Positions 56,449-64,000 of a stretch of 64,000 nt of DNA are shown here, piece after piece. Positions within the stretch are counted from its first letter, which is position 1, and each line of letters starts with the position of its first letter. Under the pieces are notes generated by a model, which saw nothing but the letters and a program-made list of their open reading frames with translations, had not been told where the DNA came from and searched no databases. A program made the translations under genes and the position numbers. Source of the stretch: Metabacillus halosaccharovorans (GTDB taxonomy: Bacteria > Bacillota > Bacilli > Bacillales > Bacillaceae); the NCBI RefSeq assembly GCF_002019635.1, contig NZ_KV917371.1, positions 1,594,001-1,658,000 on the forward strand, in the 5' to 3' direction.

Positions 56449-56502
56449 GGGACAGTTCCTTAAAAAAATTCAATTGGAACTGCCCGCCTCTTTTTATTTT
56501 TT
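56449..56502. terminator. Terminator between fxsA and ytvI
   Basis: GGGACAGTTCC...GGAACTGCCC arms, then T-rich CTCTTTTTATTTTTT; it runs into the ytvI stop. A second hairpin, TTAATTGGT/ACCAAATTAA, lies just before it (56415-56440). Confidence 0.65.
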
Positions 56503-57612
56503 ATGATGACCAGCAATAAACTGCCACAAATCTTCATACACTCCGGCACTCTTCAATGTTTTTAAAACAACCAGTACAATTGGTCCCACTATTAATCCTA
56601 AAAAACCTATCAATTTATAACCAACAAATAAAGCAACAAGTGTAGCTAGAGGATCTAAACCAATACTTGAAGAAAGAATTTTCGGTTCCATGATTTGTCT
56701 TTGGACTAAGACTATCATATAAAGTATTCCCAGCCCTATAGCAAGAGGTACTCCATCACTAAAAGAAAGATAAACAATCCACGGTACAAACACTAAACCT
56801 GTACCTAAATAAGGAAGAATATCAACTAGTCCAATTAAAAGCGCAATTGTGATGGCATAGTCAACTCGTAAGACTAATAATCCAATTAAGACAATGGCTG
56901 TAGTAATGGAAATCAAGGTTGCCTGAGCCCGAATAAAGCCAATAAGTGCTTTCTTTAATTCCACAAAAATAGTTCTCCCGCTTGACTTTGCTTTCTGTGG
57001 GATAAAAACAGCCACTGCAGATTTAAACTTATACCAATCTTTGCTAATAAAAAATGTGGCTAATAGCGAAAAGATAATGACTGTAGCGGTGTTAGGAAGC
57101 CAGCTAATGATAACAGGTATAATTTCTAAAAAGCTTTTAATGAAGTTTCCTACACTTGATGCAACTTGCTCGCCAATATTCTGGATATTTGCAATAATAG
57201 ATTGTTGTTGATTTGTTTCAAGTGTATTAAAGAAATATGTTAATTGATTATAGACAGGCATAATTTTAGTCACGAAAAACGTTTCAATGTAAAGAGCTAG
57301 TAAATCTAAGTGACCTGGAATAACTTTTGCTAAATAAGTCGTACCGGCAACAATTTCAGCAACTAAAAGAATAAGAACACCTGCTATCAAGCAAATTAAG
57401 AGCAAGATAGAAAGAATCACAGCAAAACCTCTAGGTATTCTGAAAAGTCGTTCTATTCCATTTACAATAGGGTTAATCAGCATGCTGATTAAAATTGCAA
57501 TAATAAAAGGATAAGTGAGTGTTGCCAGATAATAACTAATGGATATGCTCAAAAAAATGATGGCCAAAATAAACAAAGCCCTTAATACACTATTTACGTA
57601 TTGCAAATTCAC
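56494..57612 (-). CDS. ytvI: Sporulation integral membrane protein YtvI
   Basis: 372-residue AI-2E/PerM-family polytopic membrane protein with about eight hydrophobic segments, and the family motif [18 protein letters not shown]. YtvI is made in sporulating cells; its molecular role is unclear. GTG start at 57612 after GGGGGG, overlapping the stop of the truncated trmK. In B. subtilis ytvI neighbours fxsA and then ytwI-citZ; here it is followed upstream by trmK instead, so its original upstream partner and perhaps its promoter region have been replaced. Confidence 0.93.
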
Positions 57613-58076
57613 TCTTGCAATCCCCCCATACGATAAGCTCTATGTTCCGCTATTAATTCCCAGCCGTTTTCTACTAACCATTGGCGAATCGAAATTGCAT
57701 GTATATTAGGCTGTAAAATTAAACGAGTGACCTTTGATAGCTTCCCAGATCCTTCTTCTAAAATTTTACTAATGAGAGTTCCACCCATCCCAGCGATTGT
57801 TATACAATCAACTTCGTCTTCCTTTCGAAGAACAGATAATCCGTCTCCTTTTCGAACAGATATTACATCAGAAAGTCCACATTTTCTCACTTGGCTGTCA
57901 GCTGACTCGTATGGGCCATCTGTAATCTCGCCGGCAATTGCCCCACTGGCTTTTCCTTGTAAGACAGAATAGCAGGGTAAGTAAGCATGGTCTGAACCTA
58001 TATCTGCAAATACTGCTCCTTCAGGAATATAGTTAGCAACTGTTTCAAGTCTTTTGGATAATTTCAATTCATTCAT
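57609..58076 (-). pseudogene. trmK: TrmK tRNA m1A22 methyltransferase, C-terminus missing
   Basis: Only 155 residues against about 235 in B. subtilis. The N-terminal SAM-binding Rossmann domain is intact (LKLSKRL start, [40 protein letters not shown]). The alignment with TrmK stops after ENGWELIAE; eleven unrelated residues ([11 protein letters not shown]) and a stop follow, encoded by the ytvI leader and its ribosome binding site. The C-terminal helical tRNA-binding part is lost. The usual downstream gene yqfO is absent. Start taken at ATG 58076. The truncation may abolish function or leave a catalytic fragment; I infer loss of function. Confidence 0.85.
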
Positions 58077-58133
58077 CATTTCACCACAATTCATTTATTT
58101 ACACTTAAGAGTGAAGTAACCTATTCATCAAGT

Positions 58134-58168
58134 ATAAAAAAAGTCCTTCACAGATGCAAAGGACTTCT
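58134..58168 (-). terminator. Terminator after cccA
   Basis: Minus strand AAGTCCTT...AAGGACTTTTTTT. Confidence 0.8.
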
Positions 58169-58174
58169 TTATAA

Positions 58175-58537
58175 TTATTTAATTTGTGATACCCATTCTG
58201 CCATTTCGTCAAGCTTTTCGTCTGGCACAAGACCAGCTGGCATGATTCCTTTACCTTGCTGAATTGTTGTCTTAATTTCATCTACGCCAATTTTATCACC
58301 AACACCTACAAGAGCAGGACCTGCACCACCTTCATAGTTTTCACCATGACAGGAAATACAGTTTTGCTGGTAAATCTCTTCCGGGGTAGCGTTTGCAACA
58401 TCTTCAGTGCTTGGCTCTTCTTCTCCGCCGCTAGCTAGTTCTTCATGATCGCCGATACCTTTAAATGATAAAAGGAACATAAGGCCGATTCCTAGAACAG
58501 CGATTAATAAAAATGGAATAAGTGGATTGCGATTCAT
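58175..58537 (-). CDS. cccA: Cytochrome c550 (membrane-anchored)
   Basis: 120-residue c-type cytochrome of the electron transport chain, the B. subtilis size. N-terminal membrane anchor (about residues 5-25), an acidic linker, and a haem domain with C60-x-x-C63-H64 and distal ligand Met99 in GIMPAG. The ATG at 58537 follows GGGAGG. Between a membrane-protein gene and trmK; in B. subtilis it lies directly after sigA. Confidence 0.94.
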   Translation of the reverse strand: MNRNPLIPFLLIAVLGIGLMFLLSFKGIGDHEELASGGEEEPSTEDVANATPEEIYQQNCISCHGENYEGGAGPALVGVGDKIGVDEIKTTIQQGKGIMPAGLVPDEKLDEMAEWVSQIK

Positions 58538-58610
58538 CATGTAACCTCCCTTATGTAAATAGTAAACCTTTCCATTAATAGGCTCCATATCTAACCTACT
58601 AATGTATAGT

Positions 58611-58652
58611 AGAATTATCGTAATCATTCGAGCAGCTCCACTCGATAATTCT
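58611..58652. repeat. Inverted repeat upstream of cccA
   Basis: AGAATTATCG and CGATAATTCT, perfect 10-base arms, 22 bases apart, about 75-115 bases upstream of the cccA start. Otherwise the 321-base gap upstream of cccA shows no gene and no clear promoter. Possible operator or mRNA hairpin. Confidence 0.4.
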
Positions 58653-58858
58653 AATTTTTATTTATGTTTTACTCAGCTGCCCGTTACTGCTGGATAATCA
58701 ACATAAGTACAAATGTTTTTAAACAACCTCTATTTTACTGTAATTTTCCACTAAGGAAAAGACCTATCTTTTAACATCTCCATGTTTTTCACACTTTAGA
58801 CAAAAAACAGACAAGAGTTTCGGTTAATGCCAATAACCTGTTGACATTTTCCTATAGA

Positions 58859-59395
58859 CTATAAGAAGAGTGTCACCCCAAATATTAGACTTGCTATTAT
58901 TCCACTAATTAGTAAATAGTAAATCCGTAAGAAGCCCCCTATTGTGATCCAAAGCAAGCAGTTTGTTACAACCGTCGTTGCAATCCAAAAAGAATTTCCC
59001 TCTGTTACAAATTCAACAAATGAAAGAGACGTGATTAACAGCTGAATAAATGTTATAACTAAAGGCATTTGAAACTTACCTTTTCTAACCAGAAGGAAAG
59101 CGGTAACAAGAATTGAAGCTAAAAGTAAAAAACCTGATGTAACTGTTTGCAAAACAAAAGACAATTCAGTAAAATAGGTGACAAGAGCACTGATTAGAAG
59201 TAACACAAAAACTGCACTAGTCCAAATTATATTCGTACCTGTTTTACTATTAGCAGAGGATGCAGTTGTTTCTTCAAAATGATTTCCTTCAGTATAAAGT
59301 GCTAGTAAAAAATCACAGTATGTATCTGGAAGTAGTTTATTTTCTTTCCAGTAATAAATTTCTTTAATGATTATTTCCTTTTTTTCTTTATCCAT
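58859..59395 (-). CDS. Membrane protein of unknown function (178 aa)
   Basis: Starts at ATG 59395 (AAGGATG five bases before it); a longer frame to 59446 lacks a ribosome binding site. An N-terminal soluble region of about 60 residues (MDKEKKEIIIKEIYYWKENK on) resembling the start of DUF2157-type proteins is followed by four to five hydrophobic segments. Inserted between sigA and cccA, which are adjacent in B. subtilis. Function unknown. Confidence 0.75.
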   Translation of the reverse strand: MDKEKKEIIIKEIYYWKENKLLPDTYCDFLLALYTEGNHFEETTASSANSKTGTNIIWTSAVFVLLLISALVTYFTELSFVLQTVTSGFLLLASILVTAFLLVRKGKFQMPLVITFIQLLITSLSFVEFVTEGNSFWIATTVVTNCLLWITIGGFLRIYYLLISGIIASLIFGVTLFL

Positions 59396-59489
59396 AAATG
59401 CATCCTTAAATAATCTTTCTAAATTGTACAAAAGTAAAAAAAGCATAAATATACTATGCTATGATTCCCTTTTCTAAACTGTTTTTTAT

Positions 59490-59516
59490 GAAGAAAAGAC
59501 GGACATTCGTCCGCCC
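59490..59516 (-). terminator. Terminator after sigA
   Basis: Minus strand GGCGGAC-gaat-GTCCGTC followed by TTTTCTTC. Confidence 0.65.
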
Positions 59517-59522
59517 TATATC

Positions 59523-60641
59523 CTACTCTAAGAAATCTTTAAGACGTTTACTACGGCTAGGATGACGCAATTTACGGAGTGCTTTTGCTTCAATTTGTCG
59601 AATTCGTTCACGCGTAACTCCAAACACCTTACCTACTTCTTCAAGTGTTCTTGTTCGTCCATCATCAAGGCCAAACCGTAAACGTAATACGTTTTCTTCA
59701 CGATCAGTTAATGTATCAAGTACATCCTCAAGCTGTTCTTTTAGTAGCTCATACGCAGCATGTTCAGAAGGAGACGTTGCATCCTGATCTTCAATGAAAT
59801 CACCCAAATGAGAGTCATCTTCCTCACCAATAGGTGTTTCCAAAGAAACGGGCTCTTGTGCAATTTTAAGAATTTCTCTCACCTTATCAGGTGTGAGCTC
59901 CATGTCTTCTCCAATTTCCTCAGGAGTAGGTTCTCTTCCTAGGTCCTGTAGTAACTGGCGCTGAACTCTAATCAATTTATTAATGGTTTCAACCATATGA
60001 ACAGGAATACGTATTGTTCGAGCTTGGTCAGCAATAGCACGTGTAATTGCTTGACGAATCCACCACGTAGCATACGTACTAAATTTATAGCCCTTTTCAT
60101 AATCAAATTTCTCAACAGCTTTCATTAGTCCCATATTACCTTCCTGAATTAAATCAAGGAACAGCATTCCGCGACCAACATAGCGTTTAGCAATACTAAC
60201 CACCAGTCGAAGATTGGCTTCTGCAAGTCGGCGTTTAGCTTCTTCATCGCCTTCTTCTATACGTTGAGCTAATTTAATTTCTTCATTAGCTGATAAAAGA
60301 TCAACACGACCAATTTCTTTTAAGTACATTCTAACAGGGTCATTAATTTTAACTCCTGGAGGTACACTCAGATCATTCAAATCAAATTCTTCTTCTTTTG
60401 CAAGATCTTGAATATTAGGATCCGCTTCGGCTGCCTCACCAGCTTCACCAATTAATTCTACACCTTGTTCACCAAGAAATTCATAATACTCATCCATTTG
60501 GTCTGATTCAATTTCAAAGTTTGACATACGTTCAGCTATTTCTTCATATGTCAAGACTCCTCGTTTTTTCCCAATTTCTGTTAACTGCTCCTTCACCTGT
60601 TCAAAGGTTACTTCAGTTTCGTGGGTTTGTTTATCAGCCAT
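59523..60641 (-). CDS. sigA: RNA polymerase primary sigma factor SigA
   Basis: Principal vegetative sigma factor. 372 residues from ATG 60641, preceded by AAGGAGGGGATC (the frame is open to 60737). Shows region 1.1-like start, region 1.2 ([13 protein letters not shown]), region 2 ([33 protein letters not shown]), region 3 and region 4.2 ([18 protein letters not shown]-like end). Follows dnaG by about 135 bases in the conserved macromolecular-synthesis order yqxD-dnaG-sigA. Confidence 0.97.
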
Positions 60642-60777
60642 AGGATCCCCTCCTTCCAAACTTACCATTGTAAGATAAGCTATCGGATTACTGTCTAGCA
60701 AGTACGTTACATATTTTGATGTGCCCTTTTTACACAATCTTATGCTACAAAATAATCGTCTATTATTAGCTTACTTA

Positions 60778-62604
60778 TCATGATTTTAGAGCTTGTTTTA
60801 GTTGAATAATTTCCATTGCAATTTGGGCTGCTTCTTTGTATTGCTTATTTCTTTCAGCCTCAATTTTTTCTACTTCTTTTTCTTTTATCATTAACATTTT
60901 TTGATGATTCAACACCTGTTTTATATAATCTGAAAGTTCTTGTTCACTCACCTCAGAATTCAGGGTAATCATTGCAATGTTGGATACAATATGTTGTAAT
61001 TCAGGACTCGGCAACTTCGATAAAAATGAACTAACATTTTCTTCATTTCCTTCTTCATAAAAAGCGTATAAATAAGTAACAATTGCTTTATGTTCTTCGA
61101 TATTAAATTGAAGTCCAAGTCGTTCCAAAACTTTTTCTGCCATATCTTTGCTTCTTAACATGTGACCGATTAACATTCTCTCAGCGGTATGAAATGCGGG
61201 TAATAACCGCTTGGATTGGATCGGCTTTCTTTTTGGCTGTTCCTGGGTAGTGATTTTTTGCTGCTGCGGAGTTCTTTGCCTGTTCTTCTGTTGTTCTTTC
61301 TGCAAAATCTGCTGCTTTAAAACCTCCATCGATAGGTCAAATTCCGATGATAATTGTTTTAAATAGATCTCCTTTTCAACTGCATTGTCCAATTGTGCTA
61401 GTTCACTAATGACATTTTCAATATACTGAAGCCTTTCTCCTTCATTTTGAAGGTTTTTGCCTCTCCTGTAATAGGACATTTTAAATGTCATGACCGGAAC
61501 ACTGGCCCCTATTACATCAAGCTTGAATTTTTCAGATCCAAACTTATTAATGTAGTCATCAGGGTCTAATCCATCAGGAATCATCGCAACCTTTAGCTTA
61601 CAACCGGCCTCTTTAAGGATCTTTGCAGCTCTATTTGTAGCCTCAATTCCGGCTGAGTCAGAATCATAACAAATAATCACCTCTGAAACATTTCTTCGAA
61701 TGATCTTTGCCTGTTCCTCGGTAATAGAAGTTCCCATTGTAGCAATTGCTTGCTCAACGCCTGCCCTTGTTGAAGAAATAACATCAGCAAATCCTTCAAA
61801 CAATACAACCTGCTGATTTTTTCGAATATGTACTCTAGCACGATGAAAATTATAGAGTAATTTACTTTTATTAAATATTTTTGTTTCAGGACTATTAAGA
61901 TATTTAGGCTTCTCGTCTCCAAGTACACGTCCCGAAAATGCAATCGTATTCCCATGGTGGTCCATGATCGGAAACATAATTCGATTCCTGAACCGATCAA
62001 AAAATTCTTCGTTTGAGTTGTTTTTTTTAACTAATAATCCTGCTTCCTCCATTAAGGATAAGGTAAATCCCCGCTTTTCTAAAAACTTTTTCACAAAGTC
62101 CCAAGAATCTAAGGAGTATCCAATCTCAAACGTATCAATGATGTCTTTAGTAAATCCCCTGCTTAAAAGGTAGTCTAATGCGTGCTGACCTTCCTTTGTG
62201 TTTACAAGTAAATGATGGTAGAATTTTTTTAACAGCTCATGAGCTTCGATCATTTTCTCTGAGTCTTTTGAAATTGTGGGTCCTGGCCCCTGCTCAAGTG
62301 AAGGTATGCTTGGTAATTCAATATTAGCTTTGTCAGCGAGATGTTGCGCTGCTTCAATAAATGAATATCCTTCGTGCTGAATAAGAAATGAAAAAACATT
62401 TCCACCAGCACCACAGCCAAAGCAATGAAAAATCTGTTTGTCTGCTGAAACTGAGAACGAAGGGGATTTCTCGCCATGAAACGGACAAAGTCCAAAGTAG
62501 TTGCGTCCTTGTTTCTTCAATTGAACATATTCACTTATTACATCAACAATGTCAGAAGTTCTTTGTATTTTTTCGATTAATTCCTCGGGAATTCGATTTC
62601 CCAT
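60778..62604 (-). CDS. dnaG: DNA primase
   Basis: Synthesises RNA primers for replication. 608 residues: zinc domain Cys40, His43, Cys61, Cys64 (PFHGEKSPSFS), TOPRIM core (VVLFEGFADVISSTRAGVEQA with the catalytic Glu and IICYDSDSAG), and a C-terminal DnaB-binding helical domain. Start at 62604 on ATG just downstream of yqxD. Standard Bacillus architecture. Confidence 0.97.
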   Translation of the reverse strand: MGNRIPEELIEKIQRTSDIVDVISEYVQLKKQGRNYFGLCPFHGEKSPSFSVSADKQIFHCFGCGAGGNVFSFLIQHEGYSFIEAAQHLADKANIELPSIPSLEQGPGPTISKDSEKMIEAHELLKKFYHHLLVNTKEGQHALDYLLSRGFTKDIIDTFEIGYSLDSWDFVKKFLEKRGFTLSLMEEAGLLVKKNNSNEEFFDRFRNRIMFPIMDHHGNTIAFSGRVLGDEKPKYLNSPETKIFNKSKLLYNFHRARVHIRKNQQVVLFEGFADVISSTRAGVEQAIATMGTSITEEQAKIIRRNVSEVIICYDSDSAGIEATNRAAKILKEAGCKLKVAMIPDGLDPDDYINKFGSEKFKLDVIGASVPVMTFKMSYYRRGKNLQNEGERLQYIENVISELAQLDNAVEKEIYLKQLSSEFDLSMEVLKQQILQKEQQKNRQRTPQQQKITTQEQPKRKPIQSKRLLPAFHTAERMLIGHMLRSKDMAEKVLERLGLQFNIEEHKAIVTYLYAFYEEGNEENVSSFLSKLPSPELQHIVSNIAMITLNSEVSEQELSDYIKQVLNHQKMLMIKEKEVEKIEAERNKQYKEAAQIAMEIIQLKQALKS

Positions 62605-62636
62605 GCTAACAACCCCGTATTACAGATATTCGATAT

Positions 62637-63089
62637 TTATTTAAGATCTCCTGCATGTTTCGACAAAATCTTTTCAAATGTTGTGATAAAATTCAAGGTA
62701 TCTTCATCTGTAAATTTTTTCGGACCTTTTGTAAATTTACCACTACGTCTTTCTATAGCAGATAAATAACGAAACTGAAGAGCTGTATCAATATTTTCTT
62801 CTGTATATTGCTTTCCCCTGGGTGTAATAAAACAAACGCCTTTTCGTATTAAAAGACCAGCTAATCCAATGTCTTGTGATATTACCATATCACTTCTGCT
62901 GACATGGTTAACTATGTATAGATCTGCTTCTTCTTTACCTGTATCAACAAATACCCATTGTCTCCCATAGGTCTTATCAGAAGTGTGGTTATAGGAAGCT
63001 ACAAAAACAACATCCATTTCGTATTTGTTGGCAATTAGCATGATCTCTTTTTTTACAGGACAAGCATCAGCATCGACAAAAATCTTCAT
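62637..63089 (-). CDS. yqxD: YqxD/YaiI-family (UPF0178) protein
   Basis: 150-residue PIN-domain-like protein beginning MKIFVDADACPVKKEI, conserved in many bacteria and usually beside dnaG; function unknown. Preceded by GGCGAAAAAACG, a weak site. Upstream promoter for the dnaG block is not clear. Confidence 0.92.
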   Translation of the reverse strand: MKIFVDADACPVKKEIMLIANKYEMDVVFVASYNHTSDKTYGRQWVFVDTGKEEADLYIVNHVSRSDMVISQDIGLAGLLIRKGVCFITPRGKQYTEENIDTALQFRYLSAIERRSGKFTKGPKKFTDEDTLNFITTFEKILSKHAGDLK

Positions 63090-63412
63090 CGTTTTTTCGC
63101 CATAATTCTCTATTCTACATCACTCCGCAATTTCCTTCTACCTAATACACTTTTGTACTGAATACTATTCGTGAGAAAGACCTTAAATTCCTTTTTGTCG
63201 AAAATTATTTTATTTATTCTCTTGACAGTTTACAAATAATAGTTTATTCCCATATGTCAAGTTCTAAACCTAAAAAAAGTATTTTTATCACAATTTTTTA
63301 TTATAATACAAGTGTTTCTAAATTTCTATCATTTTTTCAACAAAATAATCGACTCACCTAATTGAGAAAAGGATGACCTACAAATCCCCTTTGTTATGCC
63401 ATCCTTTTAAAC
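63090..63412 (-). promoter_or_regulatory. yqfL-yqxD intergenic region with a yqfL terminator
   Basis: 323 bases without a gene. At 63367-63408 there is an AAAAGGATG/CATCCTTTT hairpin in minus orientation, the likely yqfL terminator. A minus-strand TATAAT near 63300-63305 has only a weak -35; a plus-strand TTGACA at 63223-63228 has no matching gene. Promoter of yqxD-dnaG-sigA is probably here. Confidence 0.45.
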
Positions 63413-64000
63413 TCATCCATTTTGATTATTCATAAAGTTAGCGATTATATTAGCTGTTTCCTCAACTGCTTTGTTTGAGACATCAACCACTTTACAACCA
63501 ATTCTTTCCACTACCTTATCAAAATAGTTAAGTTCTTCTTTAATTCGATCTATGTTTGCATAAAAAGCTTCATCATTTAAGCCAAGAGATTTGAGCCGCT
63601 CTCTCCTAATATTATTTAACTTCTCCGGCATAATACGCAGCCCGATGCATTTTTGCGGTGAAACTTTGTACAATTCTTCTGGTGGCTCAACTTCTGGTAC
63701 AATCGGTACATTTGCTACCTTGAATCGTTTATGTGCTAAATATTGAGATAAAGGTGTTTTAGAAGTTCTTGATACACCTATTAATACGATATCTGCTTTT
63801 AAAATCCCTCTTGGGTCTCTTCCATCATCGTATTTTACAGCAAATTCAATAGCTTCAACCTTTTTAAAATAATCATCATCCAACTTTCTAACTCGTCCAG
63901 GCTCATACTTGGCCGTTATTCCATATGAAGTTTCCATTTTATCAATTAATGGTCCGATTATATCGTAATAAACTACTCCTTTTTTATTTGCCTCTTCAAT
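63413..64000 (-). CDS. yqfL: PpsR/YqfL, pyruvate phosphate dikinase regulatory protein (5' end outside window)
   Basis: Bifunctional serine/threonine kinase and pyrophosphorylase that controls PPDK or PEP synthase activity. 195 residues are seen to the stop; the frame continues past the window edge (family about 270 residues). The nucleotide-binding [15 protein letters not shown] and the following [15 protein letters not shown] are family hallmarks. Acts on the PEP/pyruvate node, which the pyruvate kinase gene pyk of this window serves in the opposite direction. Confidence 0.93.

Follow-up and report, generated by a model that had tools for sequence, protein, structure and literature searches.

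An inversion of 223.5 kb splits the trmK gene and separates ytvI from its upstream spacer in Metabacillus halosaccharovorans

TrmK (YqfN) is the tRNA m1A22 methyltransferase of Bacillus subtilis and belongs to PF04816. In one study, partial deletion of its C-terminal domain is described as leaving SAH binding and no catalysis, and the enzyme is said to be indispensable for S. aureus and S. pneumoniae but not for B. subtilis (PMC9190014); nothing on that domain was found in PMC9801127. The two trmK parts described here match profile positions 1-123 and 125-205 of the same family, but they are separate ORFs lying 223.5 kb apart, whereas trmK is one gene in 79 of the 79 other genomes of the family searched. 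The second gene concerned, ytvI, belongs to the B. subtilis sigma-E regulon as listed in PMC4703394, where the null mutant is given a sporulation efficiency of 14 (taken as per cent of wild type).

Inversions have been described both as natural and as engineered events. In the Bacillus-Clostridium landscapes, inversion is a main structural change; according to that report, most inversions are symmetric about the ori-ter axis and those within a replichore switch strands (PMC5850607). The present one is of the latter kind, strand-switching and inside one replichore. Engineered B. subtilis inversions of about a quarter of the chromosome, in which most genes of part of one replichore were set against the fork, are reported to have impeded replication moderately and to have put the cells at a competitive disadvantage when grown in minimal medium; in rich medium, replication was strongly impeded at inverted rRNA operons (PMC2797598). 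The likeness to the present case lies in that head-on orientation, whereas here the inversion is natural, measures 223.5 kb and holds no rRNA operon. The inversion of Bacillus anthracis CDC 684, whose description names altered growth kinetics in its title (PMC3210476), is likewise natural, large and chromosomal, and in a Bacillus. The event reported here is of a known kind; it is unusually clean and lies inside one replichore. No description of a split TrmK or of this inversion was found by title or by the start of the abstract among the open-access papers covered.

The window, that is, the whole analysed stretch of 64,000 nucleotides (positions 1,594,001 to 1,658,000 of contig NZ_KV917371.1, here C1), contains an ORF of 161 aa (57609-58094, minus strand) which was matched to PF04816 with 183 bits over only positions 1-123 of 205, and to which no NCBIfam model was matched at E 0.001. 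Six solved PDB chains (6q56, 3gnl and four others) also match this ORF, with alignments ending at residue 153 or before. The TrmK homology stops at ...ENGWELIAE, residue 150, after which exactly eleven foreign residues are read from the ytvI leader, and the stop codon overlaps the GTG of ytvI as GTGA. The original prediction had placed the end of the match at the same motif, with 155 residues where 150 were counted here; the eleven foreign residues, the stop on the GTG, the neighbour ytvI (now with a family match) and a junction at about 57640-57650 were all found as it had described them (Table 1).

The own genome was then covered with PF04816, and matches were obtained at two places only, the piece in the window and a second piece at C1:1875185-1875448, on the opposite strand of the same contig; no complete trmK, the observation named beforehand as telling against a truncation, was found by this search. 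The second piece belongs to an ORF of 90 aa (L023:7186-7458), which ends 2 bp ahead of yqfO (TIGR00486, 313.4 bits) and is flanked on the other side by ytwI, citZ, icd and mdh, reading the opposite way (names given by eye; no NCBIfam model was matched by ytwI). The missing C-terminus, which had been proposed to lie beside citZ or yqfO, is therefore located between the ytwI-citZ side and yqfO. The first codon past the joint is an in-frame ATG, apparently by chance, and no ribosome-binding site is visible ahead of this ORF.

Both places are explained by the inversion of one segment of 223,540 bp, with one breakpoint inside trmK and the other in the ytwI-ytvI spacer. At the joint in the window (J1), one side aligns to trmK of two genomes of the genus, G010 and G014, and the other to their ytwI-ytvI spacer; the second joint (J2) is the reciprocal of the first. 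No base is shared across either joint in these alignments, and compared with G010 and G014 two small losses are seen, 6 bp (two trmK codons) and 1 bp from a short run of the spacer, the exact place of the latter being ambiguous within that run. In comparison with a further relative, G012, the order is kept over 1.579-1.931 Mb (alignment blocks of 84.5-87.4% identity) save one reversed block, which ends at both joints, as expected of a chromosomal inversion; 1.931-1.970 Mb gave no alignment of the required length. A rearrangement truncating trmK had been predicted, and the truncation stands, but the last 90 codons are displaced by the inversion and only two codons are absent. As read from the assembled contig, the inversion may be fixed or may be confined to the sequenced culture.

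Table 1. Features of the two joints and of the inverted segment (positions are those of the window unless a contig or locus is named)
Feature	Position	Strand	Evidence or remark
ytvI, intact coding sequence	56494..57612	-	TIGR02872, 346.9 bits
Eleven foreign codons and stop, from the ytvI leader	57609..57644	-	includes the G-rich ytvI ribosome-binding site
Inversion joint J1, trmK front / ytvI leader	57644..57645	none	piecewise alignment to G010/G014
trmK front part, codons 1-150 of 242	57645..58094	-	SAM-binding part of the Rossmann domain
Terminator-like hairpin and T run, after cccA and before trmK	58128..58172	-	-17 kcal/mol, z -5.0
cccA, cytochrome c550, next gene within the inverted segment	58175..58540	-	NF045773, 163.7 bits
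sigA (RpoD)	59523-60737	-	692.6 bits
dnaG	60778-62604	-	501.7 bits
Inverted segment	G000:C1:1651645-1875184, window share 57645..64000		order compared with G012; GC skew
Inversion joint J2, counterpart of J1	C1:1875184/1875185 = L023 7185/7186		spacer / trmK back part

The unbroken state was surveyed over 80 genomes of the family, the own one included. All 20 other genomes of the genus are among those with trmK in one piece, and the shortest whole match covers 189 of the 205 profile positions; one internal stop was flagged in trmK of G005 in the first search and not in the family-wide one. A single contig carries both trmK and ytvI in nine of the 20 genus genomes, and in all nine the genes are on opposite strands, separated by 224-295 kb; in the remaining 11, including G010 and G014, the two genes are on different contigs and the long-range order is unseen.

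We consider it highly likely that double-strand breaks occurred at trmK codons 151-152 and in the ytwI-ytvI spacer and that the intervening 223.5 kb were joined again in reverse orientation. The most likely route is end joining via Ku/LigD, in which the ends would have been trimmed by 6 bp and 1 bp, respectively. Loss of bases without microhomology is the usual trace of end joining. Both proteins are encoded in the genome, Ku with 329.4 bits to TIGR02772 (over the NCBIfam cut-off) and LigD with 858.2 bits to NF007211 (cut-off 774), the latter about 8 kb from the Ku gene. Since no bases are common to the joints, few are missing and Ku and LigD are present, the two joints and the gene content point to end joining as the likeliest route, although joints like these could also result from an accident of a topoisomerase or of the fork. 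Many of the bacterial inversions described lie between repeats, and homologous or site-specific recombination through an insertion sequence, a phage or an invertase would be an alternative. Here, however, it is very improbable. There is no repeat at the joints, so that inverted repeats at both ends are lacking; of the inverted matches within 6 kb of the two joints, the one with the lowest E-value has 18 bp (E 0.30) and the longest has 28 bp (82%, E 3.9), and none is at the joints. No mobile ORF is recognisable near either joint in the ORF lists, part of which were covered by the family search, and the intact ancestral places in G010 and G014 show no repeat or recombinase site beside the joints. 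Loss of bases at both joints is moreover not expected of a conservative recombinase.

A misjoined contig, with trmK whole on the real chromosome, is judged highly improbable. Such a misjoin is brought to mind by a second synteny break nearer dnaA on the same contig, where a stretch of N lies beside a tRNA cluster, and misjoins are common at such places. The trmK joints, however, are reciprocal, each is short of a few bases, they have no repeat in common, and the surrounding 464 kb examined are free of N; a misassembly usually needs a repeat, and two independent chimeras would not be complementary. An assembly error behind the adjacency of ytvI and trmK, raised with the original prediction, is thus argued against by two reciprocal joints in the assembled contig. 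The trmK joints are independent of the second break.

The second synteny break itself is located on C1 between dnaA (C1:1456977) and the window, next to the tRNA cluster, where gene order passes abruptly from the surroundings of dnaA to a stretch that G006 carries about 1.2 Mb away from this gene; the break may reflect a misjoin or a rearrangement that took place between rRNA operons. By this break the window is placed 137-201 kb from dnaA, and ytvI and trmK are 1.2-1.75 Mb from dnaA in six of the seven relatives searched (three read directly and three by assuming a circular contig, the seventh, G012, being undecidable). In G016, twenty further matches to the DnaA profile were obtained, many of them in sets of identical score; one is probably dnaI, and the others are perhaps ATPase genes of multi-copy mobile elements.

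The orientation and the age of the inversion were assessed by GC skew, which is +0.104 to the left of the block, -0.144 inside it and +0.106 to its right; the corresponding block in G012 has -0.140. Since the skew switches undiminished at both ends of the block, relaxation has not begun and the event is young. Of the 12 stretches of 20 kb sampled to the left of dnaA, 11 show a negative skew (the other +0.013), and to the right it is positive in the stretches sampled outside the block; from these signs and the one inside it, the block is oriented head-on to replication. After shorter overlapping ORFs had been dropped by the script, ORFs of at least 150 aa on the minus strand numbered 161 of 172 in the block, 29 of 107 in the left flank and 16 of 79 in the right flank. 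Besides sigA and dnaG, ten of the 48 block ORFs of at least 380 aa were named, namely glyS, dnaK, lepA, aspS, hisS, valS, pheT, thrS, polA and clpX. No rRNA was found over the block with Rfam, whose matches there, all on the minus strand, are to one tRNA, to one 6S RNA and, in eight cases, to leaders or riboswitches; the same single tRNA was given by ARAGORN. A growth cost from head-on transcription would be expected, and the absence of rRNA from the block may be the reason why the inversion is borne.

At J1, ytvI keeps its ribosome-binding site and has lost its native upstream spacer, and would have been moved into the transcription unit of the trmK stub. The old spacer stays with ytwI and is now directed towards the back part of trmK and yqfO, which would in turn be placed behind the old upstream region of ytvI. 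The strong hairpin after cccA suggests that transcription of the stub and ytvI relies either on read-through or on a promoter immediately ahead of trmK; a consensus terminator scan gave 0 terminators in 57500-58700, the hairpin being absent from its list. In sigma-70 scans, 5 sites were counted around J1, where shuffles had 3.2 (sd 1.9), and 5 around J2, where shuffles had 5.1 (sd 2.2), and since these counts are near those of the shuffles, no promoter is named for the stub-ytvI unit or for the back half.

The spacer of 14 of the 19 other genus genomes carries a two-part element, ATAAACAAG-N9-TAATAA, with small variants and constant inner spacing, which in the present genome lies at L023:7098-7121 and was kept beside ytwI. 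Each half was found upstream of ytvI in 14 of 19 genomes, against 0.6% and 1.0% of shuffles, respectively. The first half resembles the SpoIIID consensus, for which no version in letters was found in PMC517825, and a looser SpoIIID-like pattern was found in 15 of 19 genomes against 14.8% of shuffles. The distance from the element to the gene varies for both ytwI and ytvI, so that it may serve either of the divergent genes. In G009 (C71:10854-11959; L046, L047), ytvI is represented by two pieces that overlap, one of which contains two internal stops; this is either a broken gene or a sequencing error.

The consequence for TrmK was examined on the intact protein of M. niabensis in a structure model with a mean pLDDT of 94.6, numbered 5 residues lower than the full-length protein, for which the alignment comprised 20 loci, of 22 kept from 80 (58 were dropped by a start-codon rule). 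The cut lies inside the strand at model residues 140-150, ahead of the strand 153-162 and the C-terminal helices. In this model, the final one and a half strands of the catalytic sheet and the C-terminal domain would be missing from the stub, and the SAM site from the back part; no single chain holds both the Rossmann SAM domain and the C-terminal helical domain. A loss from the tRNA-binding half had been predicted, and that domain is indeed lost to the stub, together with part of the catalytic domain. TrmK is thus very probably inactive, and m1A22 would be lost with it. The contrast in need for the enzyme between B. subtilis and S. aureus or S. pneumoniae makes a viable strain without m1A22 plausible.

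Decay was looked for in the trmK halves and was not found. Over both parts, and in comparison with G010, G014 and G012, the present genome has 8 private silent changes and 0 non-silent ones; by the same count G010 has 10 and 1, and G014 has 9 and 4 (two of the four in one codon), respectively. These small numbers give no date; they agree with a trmK that stayed whole along most of its branch. The lack of private amino-acid changes in either half, together with the ATG that opens the back half, might also be taken for a split enzyme whose halves are both expressed and assemble into active TrmK, but the youth of the event explains the missing changes equally well, the intact genes of G010 and G014 having 0-2 private non-silent changes per part. 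With a cut within a strand, two codons gone and no ribosome-binding site seen before the back ORF, a working split enzyme is very unlikely. Fainter still is the chance that the halves, encoded at two distant places, reassemble in trans, each made from a promoter of its own and the back half from what was once upstream of ytvI, in which case m1A22 would be a stage-dependent mark.

The locus amounts to a natural experiment, in which a recent inversion placed several aminoacyl-tRNA ligase genes as well as sigA, dnaG, dnaK and polA head-on to the fork, an outcome avoided by the symmetric inversions that prevail in this group (PMC5850607). It also broke a tRNA-modifying enzyme that is whole in all other family genomes searched, and gave a sporulation gene a new upstream region. 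By comparison with M. niabensis, one could measure outside the laboratory what head-on transcription costs where no rRNA operon is involved, and likewise the use of m1A22.
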